Source of the DNA: Bacteroidales bacterium
GTDB lineage: Bacteria > Bacteroidota > Bacteroidia > Bacteroidales > F082
Direction: 5' to 3'
Assembly (NCBI GenBank): GCA_024400395.1
Contig: JAKSMW010000012.1
Coordinates: 1-61,874, forward strand
DNA: 61,874 bases
Shown one piece after another: positions 13,305-52,879 of this stretch (positions are counted from its first letter, which is position 1; every line of letters starts with the position of its first letter). The notes under the pieces were generated by a model. The model was given only the letters and a program-made list of their open reading frames with translations, had not been told where the DNA came from and searched no databases. A program made the position numbers and the translations under genes.

Positions 13305-14669
13305 ATGCAGATAGACAAAACTAAAGAATTGGAGACCAAAGGCATTGGTTCTCTTTTGCTTGCGTACGCGATACCGTCGGTGGTGAGTCAGGTCATCGCG
13401 TCGGTTTATAACATTTGTGACAGAATCTTCATCGGGCAGGGTGTCGGTGCCTTGGCCATCGCGGGTCTCGCCATCACGATGCCGGTGATGAACATCGTGC
13501 ACGCTTTCGGCGCGCTCGTCGGGGTCGGCGCAGGCGCGAGGATGTCGATAGTGCTCGGCAAGAAAGACGTCAACTGGGCGGAGAACATCCTTGGCAACAG
13601 CGTCATCTTCACCACGATATTGAGCGGACTCGTGATGTTGTTCGGCTATCTCTTCATGGATAAGATATTGATTCTCTTCGGCGCCACGCCCGACACCGTG
13701 GCGTATGCGCACGAATACATGGTCATCGTGCTGCCGGGAATGTTCCTGCTGACGATGGCGTTCAACCTCGCCTCGCTGATACGCGCGAGCGGTTATCCGA
13801 CCAAGTCGATGCTCATCCTCGGAAGCGGCGCGATACTGAACATTGTCCTCGACGCGCTTTTCATCTTCAGGTTCAAGATGGGCATCGCGGGCGCGGCGTG
13901 GGCGACGACGATCTCGATGGCGTTCGCCACTTTGCTGTCGGCAATGCATTTCCTGAAGAAAGACTCGTTTATCAGGTTCAGGCGTCACGGCTTCAAGCCG
14001 CGCGGTTATATCTTCAAGAACATCTTCATGATAGGCATGAGTCCGTTCCTGATGAACGTGGCGGCGGCGGGTGTCGTGGCGATTCTCAACAGCCAGCTCA
14101 TCAGGTTCGGCGGCGACTTCGCTGTCGGGGCGTACGGCATCACCAACAGTTTCATGAACTTCATGGTTCTGATTATCATCGGCGTATGCCAGGGGATGCA
14201 GCCCATCGCCGGATACAACTACGGCGCCGGCCATCCTCAAAGGCTGAAACGCGTTTACAGGCTGACGATGAAGGTGTGCGTGGCACTTGGAATCCTGTCG
14301 GCGGTCTTGGGCTGCGCCATGCCGCGTCTCATCTCGATGGCGTTCACGAGCGACACGGCTCTGCTCGACATCTCGCAGAAGGCCCTGCCGCTCATCTCGG
14401 TGATGTCGCCGCTCATCGCGTTCACCATCGTCAACTCCAACTTCTTCCAGAGCATCGACAAGCCGTGGATCGCCATCGCTACGAGTCTCTCGCGCCAGGT
14501 CATCTTCCTGATCCCGATGATGTTCCTTGTGCCGATGCTGTTCACGAAACTCGGCTATGACCCGCTGTTCGGCGTGTTCGCGTCGTGCACGGCGTCCGAC
14601 ATTTTCGGTGCCATTCTCGCCTTCGTGCTGATGCTCACGCAGAGGAAGGTGTTCAAGGTGAAGGAATAA
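13305..14669 (+). CDS. MATE-family multidrug/sodium efflux transporter
   Basis: The 454-residue protein is hydrophobic with about twelve membrane segments and the MATE signatures IPSVVSQVIASVYNICDRIF near the N-terminus, AGLAITMPVMNIVHAFGALV, and the mirrored second half with VMSPLIAFTIVNSNFFQSID. MATE proteins export cationic drugs and metabolites against Na+ or H+. The TAA stop (14667-14669) overlaps the first two bases of the last CRISPR repeat, so the array grew or settled right up to this gene. The substrate is unknown. Confidence 0.93.
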   Translation: MQIDKTKELETKGIGSLLLAYAIPSVVSQVIASVYNICDRIFIGQGVGALAIAGLAITMPVMNIVHAFGALVGVGAGARMSIVLGKKDVNWAENILGNSVIFTTILSGLVMLFGYLFMDKILILFGATPDTVAYAHEYMVIVLPGMFLLTMAFNLASLIRASGYPTKSMLILGSGAILNIVLDALFIFRFKMGIAGAAWATTISMAFATLLSAMHFLKKDSFIRFRRHGFKPRGYIFKNIFMIGMSPFLMNVAAAGVVAILNSQLIRFGGDFAVGAYGITNSFMNFMVLIIIGVCQGMQPIAGYNYGAGHPQRLKRVYRLTMKVCVALGILSAVLGCAMPRLISMAFTSDTALLDISQKALPLISVMSPLIAFTIVNSNFFQSIDKPWIAIATSLSRQVIFLIPMMFLVPMLFTKLGYDPLFGVFASCTASDIFGAILAFVLMLTQRKVFKVKE

Positions 14670-16379
14670 CTACAAATAGTAGAAATTTTTTTCGTCTTTA
14701 GACTTATTGAAACAGGTTATACAATTATTCCCGAATCTACAAATAGTAGAAATTTTTTTCGTCTTTAGACTGGAAAAGCGTGGAAATTTAGTTCATCTCA
14801 ATCTACAAATAGTAGAAATTTTTTTCGTCTTTAGACTTTTTAACATTGTAAGTGTCTGACAAAATCTACAAATAGTAGAAATTTTTTTCGTCTTTAGACC
14901 TCCAAAAGTAATCGCAGAACGTGAACAATCTACAAATAGTAGAAATTTTTTTCGTCTTTAGACAAGGGATATACTTTCAGGGATGACATCTTATCTACAA
15001 ATAGTAGAAATTTTTTTCGTCTTTAGACCAAGATCATATCTCCAACGGATGGATAAATCTACAAATAGTAGAAATTTTTTTCGTCTTTAGACCCTGGAGC
15101 GTGTTGTTCTCTACGTAATTGATCTACAAATAGTAGAAATTTTTTTCGTCTTTAGACAAATACAGAGAAGAACCAATCGAACCAAATCTACAAATAGTAG
15201 AAATTTTTTTCGTCTTTAGACTTATAGGGGGATAAAAGAACTTATGTATATCTACAAATAGTAGAAATTTTTTTCGTCTTTAGACACGGCGTGACAAACG
15301 TATGCGGAGGAGTTATCTACAAATAGTAGAAATTTTTTTCGTCTTTAGACTTATAACATTGTGCAAATGCTCGACTTGAATCTACAAATAGTAGAAATTT
15401 TTTTCGTCTTTAGACCAAATTACTCGGTATTCAAATCATTGATTTATCTACAAATAGTAGAAATTTTTTTCGTCTTTAGACTAGAGGTGAGTTTCTTAAG
15501 CCATTCTTATCTACAAATAGTAGAAATTTTTTTCGTCTTTAGACGCGGGGTCTGTCATAGGACACGCACGAATCTACAAATAGTAGAAATTTTTTTCGTC
15601 TTTAGACTGAAGTTGTTAACGTCAATCAGGATACCGCTTATCTACAAATAGTAGAAATTTTTTTCGTCTTTAGACAATACGTTGAGAAAGATAGTTACTT
15701 TAATCTACAAATAGTAGAAATTTTTTTCGTCTTTAGACTTTGCACGTGTTTATACCGATTGGTATTATCTACAAATAGTAGAAATTTTTTTCGTCTTTAG
15801 AACTGCACTCCCCAATTGCTACGATATTATCTACAAATAGTAGAAATTTTTTTCGTCTTTAGACTAAATTTCGGATCGCTACCATATTCAGAGATCTACA
15901 AATAGTAGAAATTTTTTTCGTCTTTAGACAAACCATCACATTTTCAGATGTTTAGAGCCAATCTACAAATAGTAGAAATTTTTTTCGTCTTTAGACCATT
16001 AACCACTCAAGAGAAATTTCCGGATCTACAAATAGTAGAAATTTTTTTCGTCTTTAGACCATCTGCTTGCGGACGGACGTCGCCCCCTATCTACAAATAG
16101 TAGAAATTTTTTTCGTCTTTAGACACTCTTCGTGCTCAGGCGTGACGACCTATCTACAAATAGTAGAAATTTTTTTCGTCTTTAGACAATAAAGACGAAA
16201 ATTCAGACAACGATATCTACAAATAGTAGAAATTTTTTTCGTCTTTAGACCCGTTTGCCCGATGCCCATTTGAACCGCTATCTACAAATAGTAGAAATTT
16301 TTTTCGTCTTTAGACCATTGATTGAACATAATTTAAACGGTAAATCTACAAATAGTAGAAATTTTTTTCGTCTTTAGAC
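14668..16379 (-). CRISPR. Type V-A CRISPR array, leader-distal part (27 repeats, 26 spacers)
   Basis: The 36-bp repeat reads, on the minus strand, GTCTAAAGACGAAAAAAATT then TCTACTATTTGTAGAT, the Cas12a-type crRNA stem-loop end. Spacers are 26-32 bp. crRNAs read leftwards, so the spacer belonging to each repeat lies at lower coordinates. The repeat at 14668 has one change in its second base, as expected at the old end; the repeat ending at 15802 has a changed last base. This part is now separated from the leader (52451-52606) by the prophage. Spacer 16188-16214 shares its 20 seed-side bases with prophage site 44801-44820. Confidence 0.99.
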
Positions 16380-16406
16380 TCTCGATGTATTTCTGCGCGT
16401 ATGTCA
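16380..16406 (-). other. Spacer split by the prophage; matches the phage's own transposase gene
   Basis: These 27 bp after the repeat ending at 16379 are identical to 47464-47490 in the prophage transposase gene. The minus strand there is preceded by TTTA (47494-47491), a canonical Cas12a PAM. The last four bases, GTCA (16403-16406), recur at 50813-50816 on the other side of the prophage, directly before the next repeat. GTCA is thus the target-site duplication, and the original 27-bp spacer is recovered by joining the flanks. 27 bp is within the length range of neighbouring spacers. Confidence 0.97.
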
Positions 16407-16457
16407 TATAATCAAAAAATTAAAAAATCCACTTTTTAAAATTAAAAAGTACATTTT
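16407..16457. other. Prophage left end with transposase-binding-like sites
   Basis: After TATAATCAAAA come AATTAAAAAATCCACTTTT (16418-16436) and AATTAAAAAGTACATTTT (16440-16457). The second site is an exact inverted copy of 50784-50801 at the right end. They are in the place of MuA binding sites L1 and L2. Confidence 0.7.
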
Positions 16458-16468
16458 CAGACAAAAAT

Positions 16469-16499
16469 ATAAGGCTGTGTTTTAGTTGCACAGCCTTAT
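16469..16499 (-). terminator. Terminator at the left prophage end
   Basis: ATAAGGCTGTG (16469-16479) pairs perfectly with CACAGCCTTAT (16489-16499). On the minus strand the stem is followed by ATTTTTG, so it would end the leftward modification-gene transcript before the phage end. Confidence 0.75.
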
Positions 16500-16526: not shown

Positions 16527-17165
16527 TCAGACGTTTAAATCGAATTTGACACCTGCTTCACCGGCTAACAGCTGCTTGGTTCTCTCTATATTGTTTTCAT
16601 ATATGTGAACATTCCCAAGATAAAGCGTTATAGAGTTTAAAGGCAAGTTTATTTGACGTGAAATCAAATATAAGTGATACATGTCAGCTGGCAAACCCAA
16701 ATTCGCGTCACTGCTTCTTTGGTATGCTGTCATAACAAGTTCACCGTTTTCTATCTGGAACTGCACAAGCGAAATACAAGGCGCCTGGTTGCTCTCTGCA
16801 TCGGTGGCACCGAGAAACAGCACGTAGTTTTTGCTGTTGCGCTTCTCCCTGTTAATTTTTGCAATTAACGGAGGCAGTTTCTCCATATAAGTCGGGTAAC
16901 TGTTGACCAGTACTGAACCGCAATAGTCCCACCACGTTATTCCGGCTTCGCGGTAGCGTTCTGTCATACGTTCGCCTTCCATAAAAAGCTGCAACTCGCT
17001 TTTCAGCTTGCCTCGCGCTATCGGATGGCCTTCAAATATTTCCAGAAGGTCGGCAGGTGTCAGAACCATGCTCTCATTGATGAGATATCGAATATTACCC
17101 TTCTTGTTCGTCTGGCTTTTGCCTTCAGTCAGAATCTTTTCGAGAATATCATGGTATTTGTTCAT
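16527..17165 (-). CDS. Thymidylate synthase-like protein (possible nucleotide hydroxymethylase)
   Basis: The 212-residue product follows the thymidylate-synthase pattern: N-terminal helix MNKYHDILEKILTEG, ELQLFMEGERMTERYREAGI, then WWDYC. It continues with the catalytic region QAPCISLVQFQIENGEL (Cys about 130), the substrate motif AYQRSSDANLGLPADMYHLY, and LGNVHIYENNIE. It is shorter than the usual ~264 residues, and the phosphate-binding Arg-Thr-Gly segment is replaced by NKKGN, so it is divergent. It could make dTMP or hydroxymethylate a pyrimidine nucleotide. It overlaps the methylase gene by 4 bp at the end of the phage where Mu carries mom, which suggests DNA modification rather than nucleotide supply. 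Confidence 0.75.
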   Translation of the reverse strand: MNKYHDILEKILTEGKSQTNKKGNIRYLINESMVLTPADLLEIFEGHPIARGKLKSELQLFMEGERMTERYREAGITWWDYCGSVLVNSYPTYMEKLPPLIAKINREKRNSKNYVLFLGATDAESNQAPCISLVQFQIENGELVMTAYQRSSDANLGLPADMYHLYLISRQINLPLNSITLYLGNVHIYENNIERTKQLLAGEAGVKFDLNV

Positions 17166-18004
17166 ACAATCTCCTTTCTCTTGTACATCATGATGTCAAG
17201 ATACGATGTGTTGTAATTCATGTTTTCCTTGACGGTAATCTTCTCGGCTCCGATAAACGGATTGGCGGTCACACGGCCGTCACCAAGCCACTCGCACAAT
17301 TCGACGATGGAACTCTTGTTAGAGGTGAAGTAAACGTAACTGGTGCCCTGTAAAACGCGCAGAACGTCAAGATAGTCGCCAAGTTTCCAGTAGAGGTTGT
17401 TGTAGGTGGTGCAGTCGGTGCTCAAATACGGAGGGTCAACGAGCCAAAGCACGTTTTTCTCATTTTTGAACCGCTCAAATATTTCCTTGTAGTCGCCTTT
17501 CACAACCTCTATGCCGTCAAGGTAACCGTCTGCAGGGCTGTAATCGTTAAGGCGCACATTGTTGTAGAAGGTCTGCTTTTTCAGTCCCTCAAGCGAGGTT
17601 TCGTACTTCATTGAGAATAACAGGGATGACGAAATCGACACAAAGTCAACAAAGCCAGTCTCTTTTTCAAGAATTGAAATAATGGCTTCCTTTTTCTCCT
17701 TCGGGATCAGCGAATGCCTCTTCAGTCCGGCCACAACCTCCCTGAAGGCGTGCAGCAGACGGTTTGTGTTCGGGATGTTTCTGACCCTGTCGGCAAAGTT
17801 GTCGAAATCGTTGAAGATGACTCTCGCATCAGGCCTTTCGTCCTTTGATATGCGTGCCAGAAGCCCGGAGCCGCCGAACAGGTCAACGATTGTTGTACAC
17901 TCTGGATACAGCTTCAGAACCTCTCTGTAAGCCGATGCGAAGTTCCGCTTCTGCCCTTGGAACGGCAATGGTGCGGACGACCAATTTTTGGTTTTTGCTG
18001 TCAT
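17162..18004 (-). CDS. D12-class N6-adenine DNA methyltransferase (Dam-like)
   Basis: The 280-residue protein has the alpha-class order: motif X PFQGQKRNFASAY, the AdoMet-binding motif I IVDLFGGSGLLARIS, a target-recognition middle, and catalytic motif IV DPPYLST (as VDPPYLS). These enzymes methylate adenine at N6 in short sites, often to protect phage DNA from restriction. It is translated ahead of the thymidylate-synthase-like gene with a 4-bp overlap. It begins after a strong hairpin terminator that closes the tail operon, so it probably has its own late or moron promoter. Confidence 0.9.
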   Translation of the reverse strand: MTAKTKNWSSAPLPFQGQKRNFASAYREVLKLYPECTTIVDLFGGSGLLARISKDERPDARVIFNDFDNFADRVRNIPNTNRLLHAFREVVAGLKRHSLIPKEKKEAIISILEKETGFVDFVSISSSLLFSMKYETSLEGLKKQTFYNNVRLNDYSPADGYLDGIEVVKGDYKEIFERFKNEKNVLWLVDPPYLSTDCTTYNNLYWKLGDYLDVLRVLQGTSYVYFTSNKSSIVELCEWLGDGRVTANPFIGAEKITVKENMNYNTSYLDIMMYKRKEIV

Positions 18005-35818: not shown

Positions 35819-36289
35819 ATGACAGACTTGCGAAAAAAAATCCTGAATGACCTGCGTGTGGAGCTGTCGGAAGAGTTTGACAGGAACTTCCAGCGCAAGG
35901 CCTTCTTCGACAGAAGATGGCCGCCGCGCAAGATAAACCGGCCGGGGTCACTGCTCATGGTCACAGGCACGTTGCGCCGCTCCATCAGATGTCAGGTCAA
36001 CGCCGACAGTGTCATGTGGGAATCGTCAGAAAAATACGCGTCATTGCATAACTACGGCGGAACCCTGACGGTGACCGCGAAGATGAAGCGTTTTTTCTGG
36101 TACAAATATAAAGCCACCAATGATGAAAGCTGGAAATGGATGGCGCTTATGAAAACAGGCACTGTCATCACCATACCGCAGAGACAGTTTCTCGGCGACC
36201 ACCCTCAAGTAAGGAAAACCGCCGAAAGAATAATAAATGACAACCTGCAAAATGCGGCGAACGCCATCATCAAGAACTTCAAGCCCTAA
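35819..36289 (+). CDS. Phage virion morphogenesis protein (Mu gpG-like)
   Basis: The 156-residue protein shows the family pattern FFDRRWPPRKINRPGSLLMV, TGTLRRSIRCQV, YASLHNYGGTLTVTAKMKRF and IPQRQFLGDHPQVRKTAERI. The protein completes tails or heads in Mu-like phages. It converges on the reverse transcriptase gene, with a 4-bp tail overlap at 36286-36289. Confidence 0.88.
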   Translation: MTDLRKKILNDLRVELSEEFDRNFQRKAFFDRRWPPRKINRPGSLLMVTGTLRRSIRCQVNADSVMWESSEKYASLHNYGGTLTVTAKMKRFFWYKYKATNDESWKWMALMKTGTVITIPQRQFLGDHPQVRKTAERIINDNLQNAANAIIKNFKP

Positions 36290-37620
36290 CCGATGTACTC
36301 CATCTGGTTGGTCGAGCCCTTGAAAATGTATCCGCACTGGTTCTCGATCTCCATCTCCTCAAGCGGCAGCATGTTCCGCTTGCCGAATGTCTGTTCCGCG
36401 ATGGTCATGAACTCGACGATGTACATGTATGAACCGTGGAATTCATAAGCCTTGTTTCTGCCCGTCGGGTTGCCTTCTTCGTCACGCTCCTCGATTCCTA
36501 TGAGACACTTTATCCAGTTAGGATTGCCCTTCGCGTCCGATTTCATCTCATAGTCGTAGATGGTGAACTGCTTCCCCTCCAATTCTTTCGGCGCTATGTT
36601 GGGCGCATCAAGCTTGCGGTTGATCTTGATTTTCTCTGTGAGTTGTCTGAGTTTCATTTTCCGTTCTATTTTAAGCATTAGATTATATCCGTCAGCATGG
36701 CGGAGAAGTCCGTAATAGCTGGCCCACGAATCGTCGCTCCTGCACCTTGCGGCACGGTCGCGTATGTTACGCCTCAATGACGTGTAGCCTTTATCGTGGC
36801 TTGTTTTCGTGGCATCCGTATTTCGTCTCACCACATAGCCGCAGAACGACACTTCCTTCTCGAGAGGCTGAAGCCTGACGGCCGATGCCTTGGCCCTTAT
36901 GTGCAGCTTGTACCACCAGAAGTTCTGCACCCTCCATTTAAGCCTGCTGGCATCCTCCTTTGTATATGTCGCAAAGAAGCAGTCGTCTGCGTAGCGAAGC
37001 GAAAAAGGAGCGTTCTGCTTGCACCAGTGGTCGAACTCCATCATCACGATGTGGTGCATCAGCGGCGATGTGGGCGTACCGATTGGAAGGTGTCCGTCCA
37101 CGAAGCCGACGGCGATGCCGAACTCTATCAGTTCGCGGTCGTCAGTTATCTTGCGCATCGCCTTTCTGAACACCTTCGGCGTGATGTGTTCGTAACATTT
37201 TCGCTGGTCTATTATGAGACAGTACCGCAAATCGCGGCGGTCATACATCAGGTGCTTGAGCCTGTGGATGACCGAATTCTTTTTGTCGGACGATGTTATG
37301 CCGCAGCCGGGCTTGCAGTTGATGCCGTTGTAGTTGTCATGTCTGTGGTAAAGTGGCAGCGTCATGCAGTTGAACAGGTGCTGCATCACGAAAGTGAAGA
37401 GGAACGGCGAATCTATCTTCCTGACCTTTCCGTTCGGATTCTTCTTGGTAAGTTTCCTGTATTTGATTTGGTTCTTGTACTCGCCGCTTGATATGGCGGC
37501 AATGACCGACTCGGCATACACATCCTTGTCGGCCATCATCCTGTCGGCCTGTCTTTTGTCGCTGTGACCTTTGGCGGCGTTCTCCATCGCCGCCAAAACG
37601 ATTTCTCTTGTCAAATTCAT
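36286..37620 (-). CDS. Reverse transcriptase of a diversity-generating retroelement
   Basis: The 444-residue protein has the RT palm in order: domain A YCLIIDQRKCYEHITPKVFR, motif GHLPIGTPTSPLMHHIVMME, and the catalytic FSLRYADDCFFATY (YADD). The last ~130 residues are an extension without an obvious nuclease. It lies downstream of template repeat 37767-37877 and target gene 38055-41504. Comparison of those repeats shows adenine-only changes, the mark of DGR activity. Motif 4 reads IGTPTSP where most DGR enzymes have an (I/L)GxxxSQ form. No accessory Avd gene was found beside it. Confidence 0.9.
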   Translation of the reverse strand: MNLTREIVLAAMENAAKGHSDKRQADRMMADKDVYAESVIAAISSGEYKNQIKYRKLTKKNPNGKVRKIDSPFLFTFVMQHLFNCMTLPLYHRHDNYNGINCKPGCGITSSDKKNSVIHRLKHLMYDRRDLRYCLIIDQRKCYEHITPKVFRKAMRKITDDRELIEFGIAVGFVDGHLPIGTPTSPLMHHIVMMEFDHWCKQNAPFSLRYADDCFFATYTKEDASRLKWRVQNFWWYKLHIRAKASAVRLQPLEKEVSFCGYVVRRNTDATKTSHDKGYTSLRRNIRDRAARCRSDDSWASYYGLLRHADGYNLMLKIERKMKLRQLTEKIKINRKLDAPNIAPKELEGKQFTIYDYEMKSDAKGNPNWIKCLIGIEERDEEGNPTGRNKAYEFHGSYMYIVEFMTIAEQTFGKRNMLPLEEMEIENQCGYIFKGSTNQMEYIG

Positions 37621-38054: not shown

Positions 38055-41000
38055 TCATTGCACGTCAAGCAAAACTTGAGCAGAACCGCAATAGCAAGTG
38101 TTCGTGTTGCCTGCGGAGGAGTACGCGTCCAGATAGCGAGCCGACAAGTAGCTGGAGTTAGCGTTGTAGCCTGAACGGACACCGACACGGGTTCGTTTGC
38201 CAGCTGAACCCCAATAGTTAGCCATGTAGCCATAGCCGCTTTCTCCTTTAAGGAGACCGCCGCCTTGCGAAACAGGAAGCGGCGTGTGAGGCAATCTCCT
38301 CCTGATGTAGTTGTTCGCTCTCGTCACCACCGACCCTGCAAATCTGTACTTGTCTTCGAAGCTGAACTTCTGGCCGATGTCGATGCTGGTGTTGCCTTCA
38401 TTTGTCCATTTCGTCTGGTCAGGTTCAATGTAAGCCTTCAGCTCATAACCGTAGCTGCCGCTTGCAGGGGTTGTTTCGCACTCGCCTACTATTTCGCATC
38501 CGCCGCCCCAATATGGGCCGCCGTCACCGCTCATGTTGCATCCGAGCATCAATCCGGTGCAAAGCACGCATTCCACATCGAAATTTTGTGCTGTGCCGTC
38601 TGAATTGTATGCGCTGAATGTGCCTTTCACGGTTTTGTATGAACGGCAGTTCATTTCGCCCTGTGCCACCGTCTTCGGATTGAATGTTCCTGATGGGGTT
38701 ACGTTCTCGTATCTCCATTCGCAGTCGTTGAATATGTAAGTTTCGCCAGCAGCGATTCCGAACTCTACGGCAAACGAAACGGCAATCTGGTCTTCCAGCA
38801 CCTTGCTGTGGAACGAATAGTTGTTCAGGGTGGCGACCATCACTTCCTTGCCGCCTGTCGCATTCTTGTAGATTCCGTGAGTGTTGCCAGCCCATGAAGA
38901 ATAGCCCCATTCAGAGTCCTCGCTCTTTTTCCATCGCACGCCACCATACACGCTGATTGTCGTCTCATCTGTGGCTGCATTGTTGCTGTTGATGCCGCCC
39001 GAAAATCTTGTTGCAGCGCAAAGGTTTTTTGTCCCCATAGCCGTTTCAATGCAGCGCAGGAACGTGTTGCGCGCGTGCCAGCCTCCTTCTGCCACTGGGA
39101 AAGGAGCGGTTGTGTCGCTGTTGTTGTTCCTGGCATAAGTCTTCGATCCGATTTGCGAAATGATGTACGGATAGTGCCCGTTCCCATAGAACAGTTCGCA
39201 ATCTGTTGCCAATCCCTTATAGCCAGTTGTGCCGCTCAAATTCGATGCATAGTTGAAGAAGAAGCATCTGCTTTTCACCGTGCCGTTGTCGGAAATTGCC
39301 GTAATCGGCGATGGGCAGATGCCTGTCGGTTTCAGTGCGTACATCTTCAGGTCCGCTCCGTCCCAGAAATTGCAGTTGCTCCCAAGGATGCCGTTCCATT
39401 CCTTCCCGCTGGCGCCGATCAGATTATCCAGCAGATACACCTCGTCCTTGCGCCCGACAAAGATGGAATATTTCTTTTCAACCGTCTCCCAAGGCATGAG
39501 GTAGTGGGAGACTTCCGTATATGTGGTCACATCGTCAACTGTCACGGCTTTGTACAGTTTCGGGTGGTTCAGTCTCTTCACGCCGTCTTCTGTCACAATG
39601 GAGCAGAGCGCGAGGAAGGCCCCGGGGTCGAACGCACCTGAAGCGCAGTATTGCGTCTGCCCTTCGTCGTCGCTGTAGAGTGCGTTGGCCATGCACTCGT
39701 CACGCATCGCCGCGGTTATGCCGACAACGGGGGCCCAGTTCCCGTATATGTCCCTCAGCCAGTTGTTTTTCTTCAGCTCCATAACCGGACGTTTCTTGGT
39801 CTCGCCTTCAACGGCGGTCATATCGACAAGGAACGGCCGCCAGTCCATCGCCCATTCCTTATTGCCGAACACTGCGAGTGCATCCGGGTTGTCTTGAGCC
39901 GCCGGCGACGCTGTATTGGCGTTTTCAAGCCACTCGCCGACGCAGTAGTTCGGCTGCATGAGCTTCAGAAGGTCTAATTCGGCGGAAGCCTTCTTGAAAT
40001 CAGCAATGACGGCGCGTGTGGTATCCTTGAAACCGCGCATGTATGAAATGACGATGGTGCCTGAAGCGTAACCGCCGCCGATAACCTCTTCAGTACCCAT
40101 GTCATCAGGCTTTTTGCCGGTCGGGTTGATGCTGTGTGTCCCGGTGACAGGTGTAGCCATCTGATAGTCAACATACTTCCCGGCAAACGCTGTGGCAGGT
40201 ATGATTTGCTCCGCGGACTCATAAATGAGGTCGTAACCAGCGACGGCTATGCCCTCAACATCCGAACGGACAAGGGCATCGCGCATAGCCGCATAAGTTC
40301 CGGTGGTCGGCAGAGATGCGCTGTAACGGTATCCGGAAACGATAGGTTCTTCACCGTCAACGGATTCACTGTTAATCACCTCCTCAGTCCATGTAAGGCC
40401 TGTCAGAAGCTGTGACGCGATATTGCGCTCATACGTTCCGCCGCCTTCAGGATAAATAATAACATTGTCGAAGATGCCGCCGTTGCCCTGTTCGATGCCG
40501 CGTAAGACGATGCAAGTCTTGCCGTTGACCGTCTCTGTCTGGAACTTCGACGTGAGCGCGGACACGGCCAGTGATATTTCCGCAGGCGACGAATATGCCG
40601 AGAACTCGCCGTAGTCCTTGCTCCATGCAAGATGGGCGCTAAGTTCCGAAAGGTTCGTATCACCGGCGACCTCCACAATCATGTATCCCTCAACAGGTAC
40701 ATAAAATCGCTCCGGATGGCCGCTGAACACATGTTCGGTGACGGCTGTGACTTCGGTGCCGACAGCCGGCAGTGTGGCGGAGTGCCAGACACCGACAACC
40801 GTGCCGTCGCCGACCTTCTTGTTGTTGCCGCCGCCGTCTGTCAGAAGATAGCCGTTGCTCTTTTCGGCTGTCCCGTATTCACCAACCTCACACTTCGGGC
40901 ATCTGATGATGCAGAGCTTGTGCTGCCCCGACACGATGGTGCCTTCAGTCACTGCACCGAGAATGTAACCGCTCGTCTTGCCCGAAGCCCATGCCGACGG

Positions 41001-41504
41001 GTCAAGCTGGTTTTTCCTGTTCCATCTGAGGGCGTTGATTTTGAAAGCCTTGTCTTCAGTGTCACCGCAGCCTCCGATAATCTGTAACAGCAGCGCGTCA
41101 TTGCCGCTGTCGATACTCTCGCTGCCAGCCGTGGTACGCACGACAAATTTGTCGGCAACCTCAACCCTGTCGTTGAGGCTTACGATGTCACCGGCGACAA
41201 GCTCTTCATACGTGCCTTTAGTATTCGCCTTCGCGCTGAAACGCGCCTCACCGGCCGCCGACAGGTCGTTCAGATCTTTGCTGGCTTTTGTCTGCGCCAG
41301 CTTCTTTCCCATCTGGGCGCTGAGCGCTTTTTCAGCGCCGCCGTCGTTGAGGTTGTTGACTACCTCAAGTTCGCCTTCCCCACCCTGGTAGCCGCTGTTG
41401 CCTTGGAGGGAGGCAAGGAAATCCGCCTCGCTCCCGGTGTTGCCCTGGTCAAGCCAAATCTCATAGGCCGACCTTCCTTCGTTCAAGTTGATTGCCTCGC
41501 TCAT
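38055..41504 (-). CDS. DGR-diversified tail fibre / receptor-binding protein
   Basis: The 1149-residue protein starts MSEAINLNEGRSAYEIWLDQ and GNTGSEADFLASLQG, a fibre-type N-terminus. A large beta-rich body follows. The C-terminal ~90 residues (LPHTPLPVSQGGGLLKGESG; YGYMANYWGSAGKRTRVGVR) look like the C-type-lectin fold that displays DGR-variable residues, and hold the variable repeat. It would bind the host surface. The ATG at 41504 overlaps the previous stop (ATGA); a 31-codon upstream extension is not family-like. It is far longer than usual fibres of such phages, so it may span fibre shaft and adhesin. Confidence 0.85.
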   Translation of the reverse strand: MSEAINLNEGRSAYEIWLDQGNTGSEADFLASLQGNSGYQGGEGELEVVNNLNDGGAEKALSAQMGKKLAQTKASKDLNDLSAAGEARFSAKANTKGTYEELVAGDIVSLNDRVEVADKFVVRTTAGSESIDSGNDALLLQIIGGCGDTEDKAFKINALRWNRKNQLDPSAWASGKTSGYILGAVTEGTIVSGQHKLCIIRCPKCEVGEYGTAEKSNGYLLTDGGGNNKKVGDGTVVGVWHSATLPAVGTEVTAVTEHVFSGHPERFYVPVEGYMIVEVAGDTNLSELSAHLAWSKDYGEFSAYSSPAEISLAVSALTSKFQTETVNGKTCIVLRGIEQGNGGIFDNVIIYPEGGGTYERNIASQLLTGLTWTEEVINSESVDGEEPIVSGYRYSASLPTTGTYAAMRDALVRSDVEGIAVAGYDLIYESAEQIIPATAFAGKYVDYQMATPVTGTHSINPTGKKPDDMGTEEVIGGGYASGTIVISYMRGFKDTTRAVIADFKKASAELDLLKLMQPNYCVGEWLENANTASPAAQDNPDALAVFGNKEWAMDWRPFLVDMTAVEGETKKRPVMELKKNNWLRDIYGNWAPVVGITAAMRDECMANALYSDDEGQTQYCASGAFDPGAFLALCSIVTEDGVKRLNHPKLYKAVTVDDVTTYTEVSHYLMPWETVEKKYSIFVGRKDEVYLLDNLIGASGKEWNGILGSNCNFWDGADLKMYALKPTGICPSPITAISDNGTVKSRCFFFNYASNLSGTTGYKGLATDCELFYGNGHYPYIISQIGSKTYARNNNSDTTAPFPVAEGGWHARNTFLRCIETAMGTKNLCAATRFSGGINSNNAATDETTISVYGGVRWKKSEDSEWGYSSWAGNTHGIYKNATGGKEVMVATLNNYSFHSKVLEDQIAVSFAVEFGIAAGETYIFNDCEWRYENVTPSGTFNPKTVAQGEMNCRSYKTVKGTFSAYNSDGTAQNFDVECVLCTGLMLGCNMSGDGGPYWGGGCEIVGECETTPASGSYGYELKAYIEPDQTKWTNEGNTSIDIGQKFSFEDKYRFAGSVVTRANNYIRRRLPHTPLPVSQGGGLLKGESGYGYMANYWGSAGKRTRVGVRSGYNANSSYLSARYLDAYSSAGNTNTCYCGSAQVLLDVQ
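38079..38189 (-). repeat. DGR variable repeat (VR)
   Basis: Aligned to the template, nine positions differ within 38079-38182, and every one is an adenine in the template coding strand (A to T, C or G), changing seven codons: four Asn to Tyr/Asp, two Asn to Ser, one Tyr to Cys. The conserved GC-rich stretch beside the gene end (TTGCGGTTCTGCT on the minus strand) is in the place of the initiation-of-homing site. The match fades after 38182. Confidence 0.93.
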
Positions 41505-41812
41505 TTCGATAACATTTTGATGGTTGTTAATTCGCCGCCCGCAGCACCCACGACAAGACGGAGCCAGATGCCTTCCGGAAGTATGTTTTCGTTCCACATC
41601 TGTTCGCCCTGACCTTCATCGAGCATGATGGATGACCTTGGAACATCCGACCACACGCGGCATTCAACGGATTGCTGAAGCTTGGCTGTCGGCGTACCGG
41701 TTAAATTGGAGAATGTGGCAACGAATGTCGTATTCTTGCCGTCTTTTTGGAAAGCCTCGGATACATAACCCGTTTCAAGGCTTTCATTCAGTGTTTTTGT
41801 GTTTAAACCCAT
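41501..41812 (-). CDS. Conserved tail/fibre-region protein (103 aa)
   Basis: The protein MGLNTKTLNESLETGYVSEA continues with a beta-rich middle (TTFVATFSNLTGTPTAKLQQ; VWSDVPRSSIMLDEGQGEQM). No family is recognised. It is coupled to the fibre gene by an ATGA overlap. The beta-sandwich look suggests a capsid or tail decoration protein or fibre partner. It is too acidic and beta-rich to be an Avd accessory protein. Confidence 0.5.
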   Translation of the reverse strand: MGLNTKTLNESLETGYVSEAFQKDGKNTTFVATFSNLTGTPTAKLQQSVECRVWSDVPRSSIMLDEGQGEQMWNENILPEGIWLRLVVGAAGGELTTIKMLSK

Positions 41813-43813: not shown

Positions 43814-43949
43814 TTCTTCTCCTTTTTATTGAGTTTACGACGCGGCCGGCGCAGCGGGGGCAGGTGTCGCCCCACACGCGCCTGTCGTACTCCGTCCCGC
43901 AGACGGGGCACACCGCCCAGATCTCGTGGTTGTTGGTGATGTAAGACAT
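43791..43949 (-). CDS. Zinc-ribbon micro-protein (52 aa)
   Basis: The ORF reads MSYITNNHEIWAVCPVCGTE and continues with WGDTCPRCAGR: two CPxC knuckles 17 residues apart, a minimal zinc ribbon. Its ATG shares its A with the TGA of the Gam gene (43949), strong evidence for coupled translation. Its 3' end runs 22 bp into the next gene. Confidence 0.6.
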   Translation of the reverse strand: MSYITNNHEIWAVCPVCGTEYDRRVWGDTCPRCAGRVVNSIKRRRNGTERDN

Positions 43950-44467
43950 CACGCATCCTCCTTCTTGGGTTCTACATAAAACGTCTCATCCTGCACCACG
44001 CTCAAGCCCACCTTTTTGAGATTCTCTTGTATGTCTTTGGTGTCGCGGTCGGCAAGCAGTTTGTCTTTAGCTGGCTCATCGACGGTGCGGACGTATGAAG
44101 GCAGAAACTCCTTCAGTAGGTTGGTGACAGCTCCCCATGTGAAGCCTTTCAAGGTCTTCAACTTCGGGGTGCCAGTGCGGAACCCGATGGTACCGTGGAT
44201 GGTGTCGAGGCTCTTCTTTTTAGTGAAGAGGGTGTCTTTCTGCTCAACGGCGAATGTCTGGAGGACATCGAAGGCTTTCTCCTTCTCTTCTGCAAGCTTC
44301 GCCAGCTCATCCTGATACTTCTCACGAAGCCTTGTCATCTCAACATCCAAAGTCGCGTTGATTTTCTGAATGCGTGCATCTGCACGTGCGTAGTCGGCCA
44401 TCGCCGATTCCATTGTTTCGTTGGTCACATTGCTGACCAGCACTTTCTTTTGTCTTGTCTGTGCCAT
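43949..44467 (-). CDS. Mu Gam-like host-nuclease inhibitor
   Basis: The 172-residue protein has a long coiled coil (RIQKINATLDVEMTRLREKY; AEEKEKAFDVLQTFAVEQKD) followed by the Gam core KSLDTIHGTIGFRTGTPKLK and LKGFTWGAVTNLLKEFL. Gam binds DNA ends and blocks RecBCD-type nucleases, protecting phage DNA. Family and place in the early operon agree. Confidence 0.9.
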   Translation of the reverse strand: MAQTRQKKVLVSNVTNETMESAMADYARADARIQKINATLDVEMTRLREKYQDELAKLAEEKEKAFDVLQTFAVEQKDTLFTKKKSLDTIHGTIGFRTGTPKLKTLKGFTWGAVTNLLKEFLPSYVRTVDEPAKDKLLADRDTKDIQENLKKVGLSVVQDETFYVEPKKEDA

Positions 44468-44793: not shown

Positions 44794-45135
44794 TTAATTA
44801 ATCGTTGTCTGAATTTTCGTTTCTGTGTTAATGACACATCTTGGTGTATGCCTTTCTACAGGCAGTTTTTCAGCACGTATGAGTATGTTGTCTTCCATGC
44901 GTATTTCATTGTTTAACCTGTATATCTGCGGCATCTTCACGCCGCCGCTGCCGGCTGCCGCAAACACGGCATCATCCATTATTTTTTTTAGGGCGTTGAC
45001 AACCTCATCAGGATACACAATTTTCCTGTCGTGTTTTTTCGCCTCCTCGTACGCCGCCCTCATCGCCTTGGTCTTGAGGTCGGTCAGCGTCCAGTATCCT
45101 TTTTCAAGGATATACATGAATTTCTCTTTTTCCAT
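44794..45135 (-). CDS. Phage early protein of unknown function (113 aa)
   Basis: The protein MEKEKFMYILEKGYWTLTDL has a helical first half (MRAAYEEAKKHDRKIVYPDE) and a beta-like end (LIRAEKLPVERHTPRCVINT). No domain is recognised. Its last codons (44801-44820) are the site matched by the 20-nt seed of array spacer 16188-16214, so this gene end is a Cas12a target in a related or ancestral phage. Confidence 0.5.
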   Translation of the reverse strand: MEKEKFMYILEKGYWTLTDLKTKAMRAAYEEAKKHDRKIVYPDEVVNALKKIMDDAVFAAAGSGGVKMPQIYRLNNEIRMEDNILIRAEKLPVERHTPRCVINTETKIQTTIN

Positions 45136-45648: not shown

Positions 45649-45690
45649 GATGTCTTATTGTTACTGTATTACTGTTTAAGTCCTGTTTAA

Positions 45691-46320
45691 TCAACGATTT
45701 GTGTCCGTATCAAAGCCCCAATACTCCTTTGCCTTCTCCGGATAGATGTCAATATGTTCGCCGCCGCCGTACCTCGACATAGGGAAAGCCCTGAATCCCT
45801 CGATGCTGAAATACACGTTGGAGTCTCTCCAGATGCGGCGTGCCGTGTTGCCTTCCGGCTGACTGCCTTCAACATGGCTGATGTATATGAAAAGCTTCTC
45901 GCGGAATGTCTCCTTCAGCTGTTTGTATTCCGAGAACTTCAAGTCAAGGAACTGCACAGAGTCGATGACGATGATGTCGGGGCTTTTGTGGCGTTTCAGA
46001 CGCGCCGTCAGCTCGCCGACATCCTCCTTTTCAAGAAGCACGAACCGCGAGCCGGCTTCCGTCATCTTCACGCGATCCATCGCCATCTGCATCGTCAGCG
46101 ACAAGCCTTCCTCAACACTGTCGTATGCCACACGTCCGAAATTGGTGAGATACTTGGCGAGCTGAAGGGCGAACGTCGTCTTGCCGTTTTTTGGCGCGCC
46201 GTATATGAACCAAGAACCGGTGAGTTCCGGCGTGCCGATGGCGGATCTCCACTCACCGTCCAATTGGAGTGTGTTGAACCTCGCATCGGCCACGTTCTTG
46301 ACTGAATAGGCGCGTTTCAT
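45691..46320 (-). CDS. RecA/RadA-like AAA ATPase
   Basis: The 209-residue protein shows Walker A WFIYGAPKNGKTTFALQLAK, a Walker-B-like SPDIIVIDSVQFLDL, and the sensor-like FIYISHVEGSQPEGNTARRI. This single-domain RecA-type fold is widespread beside MuB genes in Bacteroides transposable phages and may load replication proteins or act on DNA ends. The ATG at 46320 is right after the MuB-like stop. Confidence 0.75.
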   Translation of the reverse strand: MKRAYSVKNVADARFNTLQLDGEWRSAIGTPELTGSWFIYGAPKNGKTTFALQLAKYLTNFGRVAYDSVEEGLSLTMQMAMDRVKMTEAGSRFVLLEKEDVGELTARLKRHKSPDIIVIDSVQFLDLKFSEYKQLKETFREKLFIYISHVEGSQPEGNTARRIWRDSNVYFSIEGFRAFPMSRYGGGEHIDIYPEKAKEYWGFDTDTNR

Positions 46321-46322
46321 GA

Positions 46323-47174
46323 CTATCTTGCGTTTTTCTTGTTGATTGCGAATACCTTTCTGCGGACACGGCGCAAATCGTCGTCGCTGTTGTCGATAAC
46401 GGCCTTGATGTCGCTCCTTTCGGTCAGTCCGTTGGCCATGCACACCTCAATTATGTCCTGCTGCGATGTGGATTGCAGCCGGACAAACCTGCGACCGATA
46501 CGGCTGAAAATCTCCTTGTAACCCTTTTTGTTGAGCCGGAGCCCCTTGCTGACTTTCTTTTCCAGATAGTCGGTCGCCATCAGGATGATGCCGCAGTGGT
46601 CTTCCAACTGGTTGTAAAGCGTGATGAAGAAGTAGAATACCTGGTCTGAAAGCTTGTCGGCCTCGTCCATGATGATGATCGGGCTGTCAAGGCGTTTCAA
46701 GGTCGAAACGATGTCGGCCATCATATCACCGACGGTGTCGCCTGCGGGGTTCCTGCCCATCTCGCGGAGCAACTCCTGCATGAAGAGCTTGCGGTTCCAA
46801 AACTCGTTGCAGCAAAGTATGAATACATTGGCGTTGCTCTCCTGGTAGTGTTTGGCCGCCGCCGTCTTTCCGCATCCGGCATCGCCGGTGATGGCCATCA
46901 CCAGGCTGTTGTCCTGGGCGTCGGCGAACATCTCTGTCAAATCTTTAAAATTGGTTGTCTCCACAATGTGCCATGTTTTGTTCTTGAGGTTAAGCTGCGC
47001 CGCCAGATTGCGCCACATTTCGTCGCTGATGAGCTCCCAGTTGCCGTTCATAATCTGCGACACGGTAGCCGTGCTGATGCCCTTGAGCGCGTTGCCGGCT
47101 TTGTTCTGGCTTCCTTTCACCCTGATGAAGGCGTCGAGTGCCTCTTTGATTTTTTGTTTTTCCCTGACTTCCAT
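46323..47174 (-). CDS. MuB-like transposition ATPase
   Basis: The 283-residue AAA+ protein has an N-terminal helix-turn-helix (GSQNKAGNALKGISTATVSQ), Walker A MAITGDAGCGKTAAAKHY at about 97-104, Walker B PIIIMDEADKLSDQ, and arginine-rich sensor region IFSRIGRRFVRLQ. MuB captures target DNA for the transposase and keeps it away from the phage's own DNA. It directly follows the transposase gene, as in Mu. Confidence 0.92.
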   Translation of the reverse strand: MEVREKQKIKEALDAFIRVKGSQNKAGNALKGISTATVSQIMNGNWELISDEMWRNLAAQLNLKNKTWHIVETTNFKDLTEMFADAQDNSLVMAITGDAGCGKTAAAKHYQESNANVFILCCNEFWNRKLFMQELLREMGRNPAGDTVGDMMADIVSTLKRLDSPIIIMDEADKLSDQVFYFFITLYNQLEDHCGIILMATDYLEKKVSKGLRLNKKGYKEIFSRIGRRFVRLQSTSQQDIIEVCMANGLTERSDIKAVIDNSDDDLRRVRRKVFAINKKNAR

Positions 47175-47209: not shown

Positions 47210-49177
47210 TTAATACCTGTCTTCGACATCTGAAGTCATAAGCTGCGAGACTCGCTTGGTCATGCGCCCCACGTCCTCACGCGCCAGGTTGACGCCTTTC
47301 GGCTTCGGCATGTTCAGGCCGTGCTGCGCAGGGTGCATGCCGTGCTGTTCCATAATATCTTCTATGCTGTCAACCATATTGACGCGCAGCCGTTTGTTGG
47401 CCAGCTCGGTAGCTTTGATGAACTGGTGGTCAAACTCGGTCTGCTCATCCTTGGCGCGGTGGATCTCGATGTATTTCTGCGCGTATGTCATAAAGCGGTA
47501 GCCTTTCGCGTCTTTGGTGTAGAGTGCCACGATGCTCATGTCGTTGAGGTCGTAGCCGACATGGAATTTGCGGTCAACGTTTTCGCGCAGGAAGTCGAAA
47601 TCAGGCATGCCGTCCGATGTGAGAACCTCCCACCGGTAGTCGCGCTTCTTGACGGTCTTGGTGATGCCCGATGCGGTGTAGGTGTTAGGCACGGGGTCTA
47701 TCACCCCGAACATGTCGATCATCTCAAGCACGCCGACCTTGGTTGTGGCGTTGTTGACGCTCTCCTCGTACATCCTGATCCGCGGGATGCCGGTGTCGAA
47801 ATGCTCGGCATTGTTCCATTCCTCGCGGCGTTGCGCGTAGCGTTTCTTTATCTCATCAAGCGTGGGGAGGTTGTTCTTGTTGGCCATGATGAACTCGTAG
47901 TTCTCGCGGCTCTCGTTTCTCTTTGTTGTGATGTTCTGTCCGGTGAAGTACCAGTCGCGGTGAAGGAACTGCGCCTGGAAGCGTCCGAACGCCGACTCGA
48001 TGGTTTTTGATTTTCCGTTATACGGCGCGGTGGGTATGTTGAGGTGGGCGAGCTTGCCGAAGAAGTCGCCGGAAGCGAGCTTCTTGTGTCCGCCCTGGTT
48101 GTCGTAGCGAATCTCGTTGGGTCTGCGCCCCGCTTTCTGCATAGCCATCCTATAGGCGAAGTATTGGGCCTCGAAATCCTCCGAATCGCTGATATGGTAG
48201 CCGAGCAGCACCTCCGAATACACATCCATCACCTCATATACATTGCAGGTGGCGATTTCGCCTTTGTCGTTGCGGTAGTAGTAGTTGAGCTTCGTGCCGT
48301 CGCCGTACCAGATTGAGTCGCGACGTGTCGGAAGCAACGTCTTTTGCTGGCGTGTGTATTTCTCCTTGCTCTTCAGCTCGCCGTAGCGCATACCGTACCA
48401 TAGAGGCTTTATTTCAGGGCGGTTCAGGAAGGCGTATATGGTCTGTTCGCTCTCCACGCGCTTCCAGTCTTCGTGTTTCTCCACCTCATTGTTGTATTCG
48501 ACAAACAGCTGCTGTATTGTGAGCTTTTCGATCGGGGTGGCAAACCTCGCTATGAGCCAGTATTTTGCCTCTTCTGTGAGCTTGGCGCTGTTGGTCTTGC
48601 CATACAGCCCGGTAACGAGCGACTCGTAGCCTTTCTTGTGGTATTCGTCGTATTTGCGCTCCATCGAGCGTGAGTTCGACGGCAGATGGCTTGGGTGGTC
48701 TGCGTTGAGGGCTTTGGCCTGCATCACGCACTCGGCGAAAAAGTCTTTTTTGGTCTTACGCCTGCCATTGGCGGCGCGGGCCGTAACCTGGCGTTGGTAA
48801 ACACGGCGGAACATGTTGAGGATCGAGGCCTCGTTCACATACTGCGCCTGTGTGTCTTCTGGCAGATGGAGTGTCTTGCCGGTGCCGTCAGTGTAGGTGT
48901 ATGCGCGGAAAAACTCGCGTGCCTGGTCGTCGATGACAACATCCATAAACGACTGCTTCTTCTCCTCCTCGTCTATCCTGCCGAATTTAGCCTCAATAGC
49001 AGCGCGGCGGTCAGGTCGCCTGATCGACTTCACATCTATTAAGGTGTTGCCATTGATGCCGCGCTTCACTATGGTAAGATTATTTTTGCTGTCATAATGA
49101 AATTGCCTTTCTGTCAGACCTGCCGCCATCCAATCGTTAACACTTATTGCCAATATGTCGCCGTATTTCTGATACAT
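47210..49177 (-). CDS. MuA-like DDE transposase
   Basis: The 655-residue protein shows the catalytic triad D293 (SIWYGDGTKLNYYY), D359 (EIRYDNQGGHKK) and E394 (TIESAFGRFQAQF), spacing 65 and 34. N-terminal DNA-binding domains precede (VNDWMAAGLTERQF) and a C-terminal domain for MuB contact follows. It carries out integration and replicative transposition. Start ATG 49177 begins MYQKYGDILAISVND; an extension to 49231 would overlap a tRNA-like sequence and is rejected. Codons 563-571 (DNA 47490-47464) are the exact target of the CRISPR spacer that this prophage split. Confidence 0.95.
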   Translation of the reverse strand: MYQKYGDILAISVNDWMAAGLTERQFHYDSKNNLTIVKRGINGNTLIDVKSIRRPDRRAAIEAKFGRIDEEEKKQSFMDVVIDDQAREFFRAYTYTDGTGKTLHLPEDTQAQYVNEASILNMFRRVYQRQVTARAANGRRKTKKDFFAECVMQAKALNADHPSHLPSNSRSMERKYDEYHKKGYESLVTGLYGKTNSAKLTEEAKYWLIARFATPIEKLTIQQLFVEYNNEVEKHEDWKRVESEQTIYAFLNRPEIKPLWYGMRYGELKSKEKYTRQQKTLLPTRRDSIWYGDGTKLNYYYRNDKGEIATCNVYEVMDVYSEVLLGYHISDSEDFEAQYFAYRMAMQKAGRRPNEIRYDNQGGHKKLASGDFFGKLAHLNIPTAPYNGKSKTIESAFGRFQAQFLHRDWYFTGQNITTKRNESRENYEFIMANKNNLPTLDEIKKRYAQRREEWNNAEHFDTGIPRIRMYEESVNNATTKVGVLEMIDMFGVIDPVPNTYTASGITKTVKKRDYRWEVLTSDGMPDFDFLRENVDRKFHVGYDLNDMSIVALYTKDAKGYRFMTYAQKYIEIHRAKDEQTEFDHQFIKATELANKRLRVNMVDSIEDIMEQHGMHPAQHGLNMPKPKGVNLAREDVGRMTKRVSQLMTSDVEDRY

Positions 49178-49194
49178 TTCTGTTTCCTTTCTTT

Positions 49195-49273
49195 TGCTCG
49201 GAAGGGCGGAGTCGAACCGCCTTCGCGCCAAATCTTAGTTATGCTGATTGCCACCATCAGCCGGCATCCGAGT
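49195..49273 (-). ncRNA. tRNA-like sequence upstream of the transposase
   Basis: The minus strand has a perfect T-arm (GGCGG-TTCGACT-CCGCC), a 6-bp acceptor pairing CTCGGA/TCCGAG followed by discriminator A, and a D-arm-like GCC...GGC. The anticodon arm is poorly paired (AATC...GATT with mismatches) and the first acceptor pair is A-C. It may be a decayed tRNA or a tRNA mimic. It fills the gap between two genes. Confidence 0.45.
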
Positions 49274-50219: not shown

Positions 50220-50812
50220 TCCGCCGCAAGTGCGTGATTGTACCTCTGTATAATAAGTAGAGTAAATTCGGCAAAATATGCATTTTTTCTGATATTTTAG
50301 CACAAATCATTGATTTTTAATTATTTAATACAAAAGCAACCTGCCAAAATCTGGTATTAAAGGGGGTGCAATCGCTGTTTTTCGGGCATTTTCGGGGTGT
50401 TTTTCGGTCGTAAAGGTCTTTTAATCGGATAATTTTTGTTACAATTTTTGTCATAACTTTGTCACAACTCGTTCAATTTTGCAATTTCTGGGTAAAAGAG
50501 AAACGGCCTCCGGGGTATATGTCCGGAGGCCGTTTCTGGTTGGCTTAAACGCTCGTTTAAACGGCGTTTTTGTATCGTTTAAATGGTGCTAAAGCATTGT
50601 TTTTAATGGTGTTTTTAGCTGTTTTGGCGGTCGAAGCCGGCGTTTATTATAATAAGGTTGTCGCATAGTTGAGCTTTTCATGCAATTAATTATAGCAAAA
50701 CTGCGCAAAATTAAAGCAAATTGTACTTTTTATTTTTTATCCCTCAAATATAAAGCGTTGTAAATCAAAAATTTGCGCTTTTTAAAATGTACTTTTTAAT
50801 TTATACCCCATA
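50220..50812. other. Non-coding right end of the prophage
   Basis: About 590 bp without a credible gene. It holds the hairpin at 50499-50537, palindromic GTTTAAAC copies near 50550-50560, an R2-like site around 50719-50734 (AATTGTACTTTTTATT), and AAAATGTACTTTTTAATT (50784-50801), the exact inverse of the left-end site, 11 bp from the end. Confidence 0.65.
50499..50537 (+). terminator. 15-bp perfect hairpin after the repressor gene
   Basis: AGAAACGGCCTCCGG (50499-50513) pairs with CCGGAGGCCGTTTCT (50523-50537) around a 9-base loop. No T-run follows on the plus strand, so it may be a terminator of another kind or a structural or binding element. Confidence 0.55.
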
Positions 50813-50816
50813 GTCA

Positions 50817-52450: not shown

Positions 52451-52606
52451 TTATCTTTCCAAAAACGTCTGCAAAAGTAATGATTTTCTTTAATATACAG
52501 ACAATATTTTTTTGTTCATTTACCCCACCCCAAAATATAATACAGTGTATGTTATTGATAATAAATCACATGTAATATGCAATTAAATAATTAACACTAT
52601 GGTTTG
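52451..52606 (-). promoter_or_regulatory. CRISPR leader with pre-crRNA promoter
   Basis: The AT-rich 156-bp gap between cas2 and the first repeat. The minus strand carries TACTTTTG (52479-52472), a perfect -7 element, with TTG at 52504-52502 in the -33 place. Transcription would start about 15 bases before the first repeat. New spacers are expected to enter here. Confidence 0.75.
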
Positions 52607-52879
52607 CTAAAGAAAAATCACGTCAGTGTCACGATGTATGGCATTACCATACTTGACAATTTTGTTTTCTCCCACCTCGAAAATGACAACACTATCTCCG
52701 CCACCGAATTTGCGGGAATAAAAGTTTTCAATCTTAATCTTCAGATTTTCAATGATTCTGTTGGTGTTGTTGACTTCATACACGGAATACTGTAACCTCA
52801 CGGCACCATTTTTTGTTAACATCTTGTTGAAATGATTCCTTAACTTGTCGTCCTCTATGTCATAACTGATGATTATCAT
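52607..52879 (-). CDS. cas2: CRISPR-associated endonuclease Cas2
   Basis: The 90-residue protein begins MIIISYDIEDDKLRNHFNKM, the ferredoxin-like Cas2 start with a conserved Asp after the first strand, and shows RLQYSVYEV and VVIFEVGENKIVKYGN. With Cas1 it forms the spacer-integration complex. Its ATG overlaps the cas1 stop by 4 bp. It is the last cas gene before the leader. Confidence 0.93.
   Translation of the reverse strand: MIIISYDIEDDKLRNHFNKMLTKNGAVRLQYSVYEVNNTNRIIENLKIKIENFYSRKFGGGDSVVIFEVGENKIVKYGNAIHRDTDVIFL

Follow-up and report, generated by a model that had tools for sequence, protein, structure and literature searches.

Can a transposable phage survive in an immunised host by landing in the very spacer that records it? 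The locus that raises this question belongs to a Bacteroidales bacterium (GTDB lineage F082; assembly GCA_024400395.1), and the window, by which we mean the whole stretch of contig JAKSMW010000012.1 that was analysed, spans 61,874 nucleotides. It is a single case from a metagenome-assembled genome that is 83% complete and distributed over 61 contigs.

A Cas12a array split within one spacer

Parsing of the type V-A (Cas12a) array returned 53 copies of a 36-bp repeat, of which 51 are exact. Its 52 spacers comprise 26 intact ones to the left of the prophage, 25 intact ones to its right and the one that the prophage interrupts. The left half (14668–16379, minus strand, 27 repeats) is the older, leader-distal part and the right half (50817–52450, minus strand, 26 repeats) the newer, leader-proximal part. 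The sequence AATTTCTACTATTTGTAGAT, with which the repeat terminates on the minus strand, is taken as the Cas12a form of the crRNA handle; given this orientation and the position of the cas genes to the right, transcription of the array should run from right to left. An AT-rich leader (52451–52606, minus strand) contains a weak promoter candidate at 52504–52472, where the Bacteroidota-type consensus was matched in its relaxed form (TTG ... TACTTTTG) and not in its strict form. Two leader-side spacers, 51426–51452 and 52134–52160, differ at only 3 of 27 positions, the kind of pair that would arise from renewed acquisition against a variant of one target.

The interrupted spacer (16380–16406, minus strand) measures 27 nt. 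This is the most frequent spacer length in the array (16 of 51), which suggests that the left side retains the complete spacer and that only its last 4 bp recur on the right. These 4 bp, GTCA, constitute a target-site duplication that can be read directly from the sequence at 16403–16406 and 50813–50816; the right copy lies directly before the next repeat and reads TGAC on the crRNA strand. The repeat that supplies the handle of the interrupted spacer (50817–50852) now precedes TGAC and the left end of the phage. The 4 nt at 50813–50816 are thus the sole remnant of the guide beside a repeat, and it follows from the anatomy of the array that the remaining 23 nt are no longer preceded by a handle.

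The machinery that would use such guides is encoded next to the leader on the minus strand, as open frames for cas2 (52607–52879), cas1 (52876–53859), cas4 (53849–54409) and a cas12a of 1277 aa (54411–58244). The last has no internal stop and retains IGIDRGE, EDLN and DANGA, the catalytic motifs of the RuvC domain. Pfam matches to REC1, REC2, NUC and RuvC identify the protein as a type V-A effector, and it matches 26 solved sequences, the top one being ReChb and nearly all others Cas12a/Cpf1. Cas12a was detected in 5 of 99 genomes of the genus, this one included.

A Mu-like prophage with probable transposition junctions

The inserted element is a Mu-like prophage of 34,406 bp (16407–50812, minus strand) carrying genes for transposition, head, tail and lysis; its ends were set by comparison with relatives. 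Genes were called by a PHROGs scan of 37 phage ORFs and by Pfam searches on parts of them. The MuA-type transposase gene (47210–49231, minus strand) matches PHROG 310 (E 1.6e-67), and its Pfam rve match is below threshold (25.8 bits vs a cut-off of 32.6). Together with a MuB-type ATPase, or DNA transposition protein (46323–47174, minus strand), and a Mu Gam-like end protection protein (43949–44467, minus strand), both identified by profile matches, it marks the element as a Mu-like phage. Further products include terminase, portal, head protease, major head proteins, tail sheath, baseplate hub, endolysin and reverse transcriptase. The reverse transcriptase ORF (36286–37620) adjoins a tail-like protein of 1180 aa (38055–41597), and the two likely form a diversity-generating retroelement of the sort reported for a Bacteroides phage (PMC6199706). 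At the phage right end (16527–18004), thymidylate synthase-like and DNA methyltransferase-like genes are possibly cargo.

Features of a CRISPR-associated transposon (CAST), i.e., a guide array and Cas effector of its own, were not found in the phage: copies of the array repeat are confined to the host array on either side of it, and the PHROGs scan gave no Cas-named hit among the 37 ORFs. No second phage copy was found in the own genome, at its 83% completeness; a MuA search there gave one match and a right-end search hit nothing beyond the known end and the protospacer. Relatives of the phage whose transposase is 81–98% identical occur in five genomes of the same genus.

The junctions look like those of a true transposition, given that the end sequences agree among relatives and that two relatives also duplicate 4 bp. 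The phage right end begins with TATAATC here and in eight other genomes, and the left end with TATGGGG here and in genome G044 or with TAAGGGG in G027 and G031. Near the ends, an 18-bp sequence is present in inverted orientation (AATTAAAAAGTACATTTT at 16440–16457, its counterpart at 50784–50801). The duplicated target is GTCA here and GATA/GATA in both G044 and G027, in each of which two contigs are assumed to border one prophage. No open frame of at least 150 aa spans the reconstructed empty site of G044, so that this site is defined by the duplication. Passages of PMC11406979 give a 5-bp duplication for Mu and Mu-like phages; the 4 bp found here and in two relatives mark a Mu-like group that duplicates 4 bp and is distinct from phage Mu itself. 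Flanks of the right end differ among the eight other genomes, indicating varied insertion sites, as expected of a Mu-like phage with a short duplication.

The interrupted spacer matches the phage's own transposase gene

The interrupted spacer is identical at 27 of 27 positions to 47464–47490 (minus strand), inside the transposase ORF. For 52 spacers against the phage, the chance expectation of such a match is approximately 2e-10. The bases in front of the protospacer on the crRNA-sense strand are CTTTA, which places a TTTA PAM at 47491–47494 (minus strand). Five other spacers of the array have protospacers with no or one mismatch among the fetched loci, and their PAMs (TTTG, TTTG, TTTG, TTTA and GTTA) together with TTTA display the T-rich motif 5' of the protospacer that is a feature of type V-A. 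Neither the protospacer nor the PAM in the prophage is mutated; escape of the phage was therefore not achieved by mutation at this place.

These results bear out most of what an earlier note on this DNA had read from the letters: that the phage splits one Cas12a spacer into 27 bp on the left and GTCA on the right, on which direct reading and array parsing agree; that only 4 nt of seed, TGAC, are left next to the repeat before the phage end; and that the 27-bp spacer recurs behind a TTTA PAM in the transposase gene. Its background statement that Mu-like phages insert nearly at random and duplicate a few bp is likewise in keeping with the differing flanks and 4-bp duplications.

Genome G043 of the same genus contains protospacers for four other spacers of the array, three of them exact (two in locus L062, one in L027) and one, in L072, with one mismatch; L062 and L072 lie on its contig 45 and L027 on its contig 67. 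The exact protospacer of the interrupted spacer is present in the phage of G044, and none was found in viral contigs. Other phage relatives (L031, L042) vary at the equivalent of 47464–47490, with a TTCG PAM in G081 and a changed seed position 2 in G031. This variation could reflect CRISPR pressure or plain divergence.

Arrays of relatives were compared with the phage group at four loci (L085, L022, L034 and L023, with 17, 15, 13 and 15 spacers), a count that leaves out L024 with its 8 units. They yielded no convincing match, the best being 20 of 27, and their repeats differ from the repeat of the array described here.

Other spacers and transcription across the insertion

Among the 51 intact spacers, the best matches to the phage have 4, 6, 7 and 7 mismatches, whereas the best in the controls, against host flanks and the reversed phage, has 8. 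The closest is the leader-distal spacer 16188–16214 (minus strand), which matches 44801–44827 (plus strand) at 23 of 27 positions. Its first 20 seed-side nucleotides are perfect, 0 of 400 shuffles reach 23, and the protospacer is preceded by ATTA. A second, weaker place for this spacer in the phage has an 8-nt seed, 19 of 27 identities and GTTA. Guide 16188 would cut the prophage if ATTA is accepted by this Cas12a. A further leader-distal spacer, 16316–16343 (minus strand), matches 22 of 28 positions at 45669–45696 with mismatches in the seed and a TGTA PAM, and is probably the trace of a relative of this phage. Both this spacer (6 mismatches) and 51812–51840 (7 mismatches) beat 400 of 400 shuffles but were rejected as active guides on account of seed mismatches and the absence of an NTTV PAM. 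Spacer 14704–14734 was rejected as a phage match, since 17 of 400 shuffles equal its 10 mismatches of 31.

We also scanned every NTTV place in the phage with all 52 spacers, counting seeds of at least 8 nt. Nine places emerged, with seeds of 27 (the interrupted spacer), 20 (16188), 11, 9 and 9 nt and four of 8 nt, against three in the reversed phage, all of 8 nt. The 11-nt seed belongs to the left array half and has 14 of 29 identities overall. The 25 leader-side spacers account for one of the nine places (8-nt seed, 15 of 28), which is the level of the reversed-phage control. The insertion point therefore divides leader-side spacers that ignore the phage from array spacers able to match it. 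This is the pattern expected if the split of the perfect guide and a loss of transcription downstream were both needed or useful.

Transcription of the leader-distal half may indeed have suffered: its 26 spacers are disconnected from the leader by the 34-kb phage, and loss of transcription may matter besides the split. A hairpin at the phage right end (16469–16499), with a T-rich stretch behind it when the minus strand is read, has a minus-strand folding energy of -16.1 kcal/mol and could stop phage transcripts before they reach the left half. A strong hairpin inside the phage left end (50499–50537; -29.6 and -33.7 kcal/mol) could stop leader transcripts that enter the phage. The terminator scan listed the former on the plus strand only and the latter not at all; with neither called on the minus strand, insulation of the left half is uncertain. 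No sigma-70-like minus-strand promoter was listed between 14600 and 16460. Between spacer 16188 and the phage end there is no full promoter-like match of either kind, only an isolated -7-like element in the T-rich stretch, and strict Bacteroidota-type matches appear further downstream in the left half, at 15323 and 14936.

One could propose that what selection favoured was polar silencing, i.e., that the leader-distal half was cut off from its promoter and the hit within the cognate spacer was incidental. Spacer 16188–16214 would remain a threat if it were transcribed and this Cas12a tolerated ATTA, and the protospacers of the array itself include one with a GTTA PAM. The hairpins near both phage ends and the distribution of promoter matches, none of the sigma-70-like kind in 14600–16460 and the strict Bacteroidota-type ones only further downstream, point in the same direction. 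However, this account does not predict the exact spot, as the cognate spacer makes up only approximately 0.3–0.5% of silencing sites by length, and the split of the seed by itself already removes the perfect guide. Full silencing is also not assured, with neither hairpin called a minus-strand terminator and with strict promoter-like matches in the left half where the leader has only a relaxed one. Polar silencing as the principal cause is therefore improbable in our view.

A probable route to survival of the lysogen

The most probable explanation is that an immunised host survived as a lysogen since the phage had landed in the cognate spacer, a reading to which we assign a probability of roughly 78%. 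The earlier note had arrived at the same scenario, which gains from the intact cas genes, the unmutated protospacer and PAM, the lack of a good guide on the leader side and a duplication as long as in the phage group; no feature of the sequence speaks against it. According to this scenario, the Cas12a array of the host was functional and one of its spacers targeted the transposase gene of the Mu-like phage; any lysogen formed in such a host should then suffer cleavage of the protospacer, barring loss of the guide. The phage then transposed into that spacer and, as the junctions show, came to lie 4 nt away from the handle-forming repeat. A crRNA made from this repeat should consist of TGAC followed by phage-end sequence, and with that composition its match to the transposase gene is lost. 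The same event put 34 kb of phage DNA, bearing a hairpin close to either end, in between the leader and the 26 older spacers, 16188 among them; what the cell retains is the prophage, uncut, together with an intact cas12a and the 25 newer spacers. Selection presumably acted on many near-random insertions, those that left the guide intact having died. We infer that the insertion occurred either during infection or as a later hop inside a lysogen; the sequence fits both.

Selection explains the survival of a silencing insertion, and the exact site only in part. The 27-bp target represents approximately 1.3e-5 of the assembled genome, which is the probability of a random landing per insertion. Insertions in the leader-side half of the array, the leader or cas12a should silence the guide as well; by length the in-spacer site amounts to approximately 0.3–0.5% of these silencing sites (right array half, leader and cas12a), leaving the hit within the spacer as a residual surprise beyond plain selection. 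Possible reasons for it are the benefit of retaining newer spacers and cas12a, incomplete polarity, chance, or a bias of transposition. The spacer may also have been the newest one beside the leader at that time, the other 25 having been added later.

A comparison across relatives provides context for this single event. Among the 98 other genomes of the genus, each of another species and mostly represented by three scored candidates, no sister genome with an uninterrupted array was seen. The earlier note had also proposed surveying other transposable prophages. Using a coarse detector (exact 20-mers in at least three copies, 50–85 bp apart, over 72 loci), by which degenerate or distant arrays are missed, we found no array beside other Mu-like left ends, with 61 of the 70 MuA matches outside the own genome covered. 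Of the 58 stretches in the main batch of left flanks, 43 measured at least 5 kb, and many flanks were truncated by contig ends. The detector recorded an array only in L085, the separate array contig of G044, and three-copy repeats within phage sequence at the tails of L080 and L162. The array repeat is also absent from the eight other right-end flanks, over 40 bp each.

Could the spacer instead have been harmless already, owing to a silent system or an anti-CRISPR, so that the phage landed there by chance? Many of the 37 scanned phage ORFs have no assigned function and could include an anti-CRISPR, and interference by this Cas12a is putative. Arrays are AT-rich and, by analogy with Mu, may attract Mu-like transposition. 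However, the cognate spacer would be hit with a probability of approximately 1.3e-5 genome-wide and of 0.8% even if an insertion within the array is granted, and the coarse survey shows no other Mu-like left end beside an array. We consider coincidence very improbable.

The residual surprise would be removed if insertion had been directed, with protospacer–spacer pairing, e.g., after Cas12a cutting, tethering phage DNA and raising local transposition. This would explain why the spacer was hit and not the rest of the larger silencing target, and a passage of PMC8616872, citing Varble 2019, treats recombination between spacers and the phage sequences they target as established. On the other hand, the case stands alone, a mechanism in Mu-like transpososomes would be hypothetical, the 27-bp homology is short, and selection does not need the step. 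We therefore give directed insertion scarcely any weight, and similarly little to the broader idea that the landing site was favoured as well as selected, in which a CRISPR memory would serve as homing site for the phage it records, possibly through pairing after Cas12a cleavage. An assembly or binning artefact is least credible of all: the genome is a draft and a 29-bp stretch common to the left junction and the protospacer is of the repeat type that can mislead an assembler, but 53 near-identical 36-bp repeats were resolved on the one contig, so that a 29-bp repeat should not break the assembly, a mis-join via the protospacer would continue with TAAAGCGG and not with the exact phage right end, and the duplication has the same length, 4 bp, as in two relatives.

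Comparison with known systems

The proposed survival by insertion into the cognate spacer has its closest counterpart in Streptococcus pyogenes, where phage AP1.1 reportedly employs a site-specific integrase. This phage inserts into CRISPR repeats (Varble 2021; PMC9379143, PMC10359306), and in both cases a temperate phage enters a CRISPR array and immunity is neutralised, or in the present case apparently so. In contrast to the repeat insertion of AP1.1, a MuA-type transposase is involved here, and the insertion point is not in a repeat but 4 bp from one, inside the one perfectly matching spacer of a type V-A array.

A second parallel comes from the Mu-like phage DMS3 and its self-targeted lysogens in P. 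aeruginosa PA14. In Table 1 of PMC11406979 all 18 isolates carry a change, which affects the targeting spacer in 7 and cas genes in 4; in the other 7, a deletion bounded by the phage removes the CRISPR region. As in the locus described here, a Mu-like phage faces a self-targeting spacer and, in 7 of the 18 isolates, the conflict is removed by phage transposition. Unlike in our case, the outcomes described there are large deletions or host mutations in spacer or cas genes, the system is type I-F and the match imperfect; the table contains no case of insertion into the cognate spacer. Insertion sequences that inactivate cas genes, as mentioned in a passage of PMC10359306, resemble our case in that transposition inactivates CRISPR immunity and the targeted element persists, yet there the cas genes and not the cognate spacer are hit and the targeted element is a plasmid.

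Other Mu-like phages of Bacteroidales, including the hankyphages, share MuA/MuB transposition with this phage (passages of PMC12135933). Hankyphages also carry a diversity-generating retroelement (PMC6199706), and the phage described here likewise has a reverse transcriptase ORF. It nevertheless belongs to a different phage group: a 3-kb MuA/MuB query matched 33 phage records at 60–80% identity (20 of Bacteroides, 10 of Porphyromonas and 3 others), with nucleotide identities of approximately 66–67% over 25–27% of the query among the 20 of 33 records listed. The passages of PMC12135933 concerned contain no link between hankyphages and CRISPR evasion.

The locus is a natural record of a transposable temperate phage that apparently survived a perfectly matching guide by destroying it with its own body. 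Effector, adaptation genes and 25 newer spacers are kept, which makes this a less costly exit than giving up the whole CRISPR locus. Public genomes lend themselves to a search for other cognate spacers broken in this way, and a simple lysogeny assay would reveal how often, and with what bias, such events arise. The earlier note regarded escape by transposition into the matching spacer as undescribed. For the in-spacer form this holds as far as the open-licence PMC literature is concerned, in which our searches turned up no phage residing within its own cognate spacer, but the integration of prophages into CRISPR loci had already been described. Overall, evasion by insertion into CRISPR loci is a known strategy to which the present case adds a new form, transposition into the spacer itself, and not a new kind of system.
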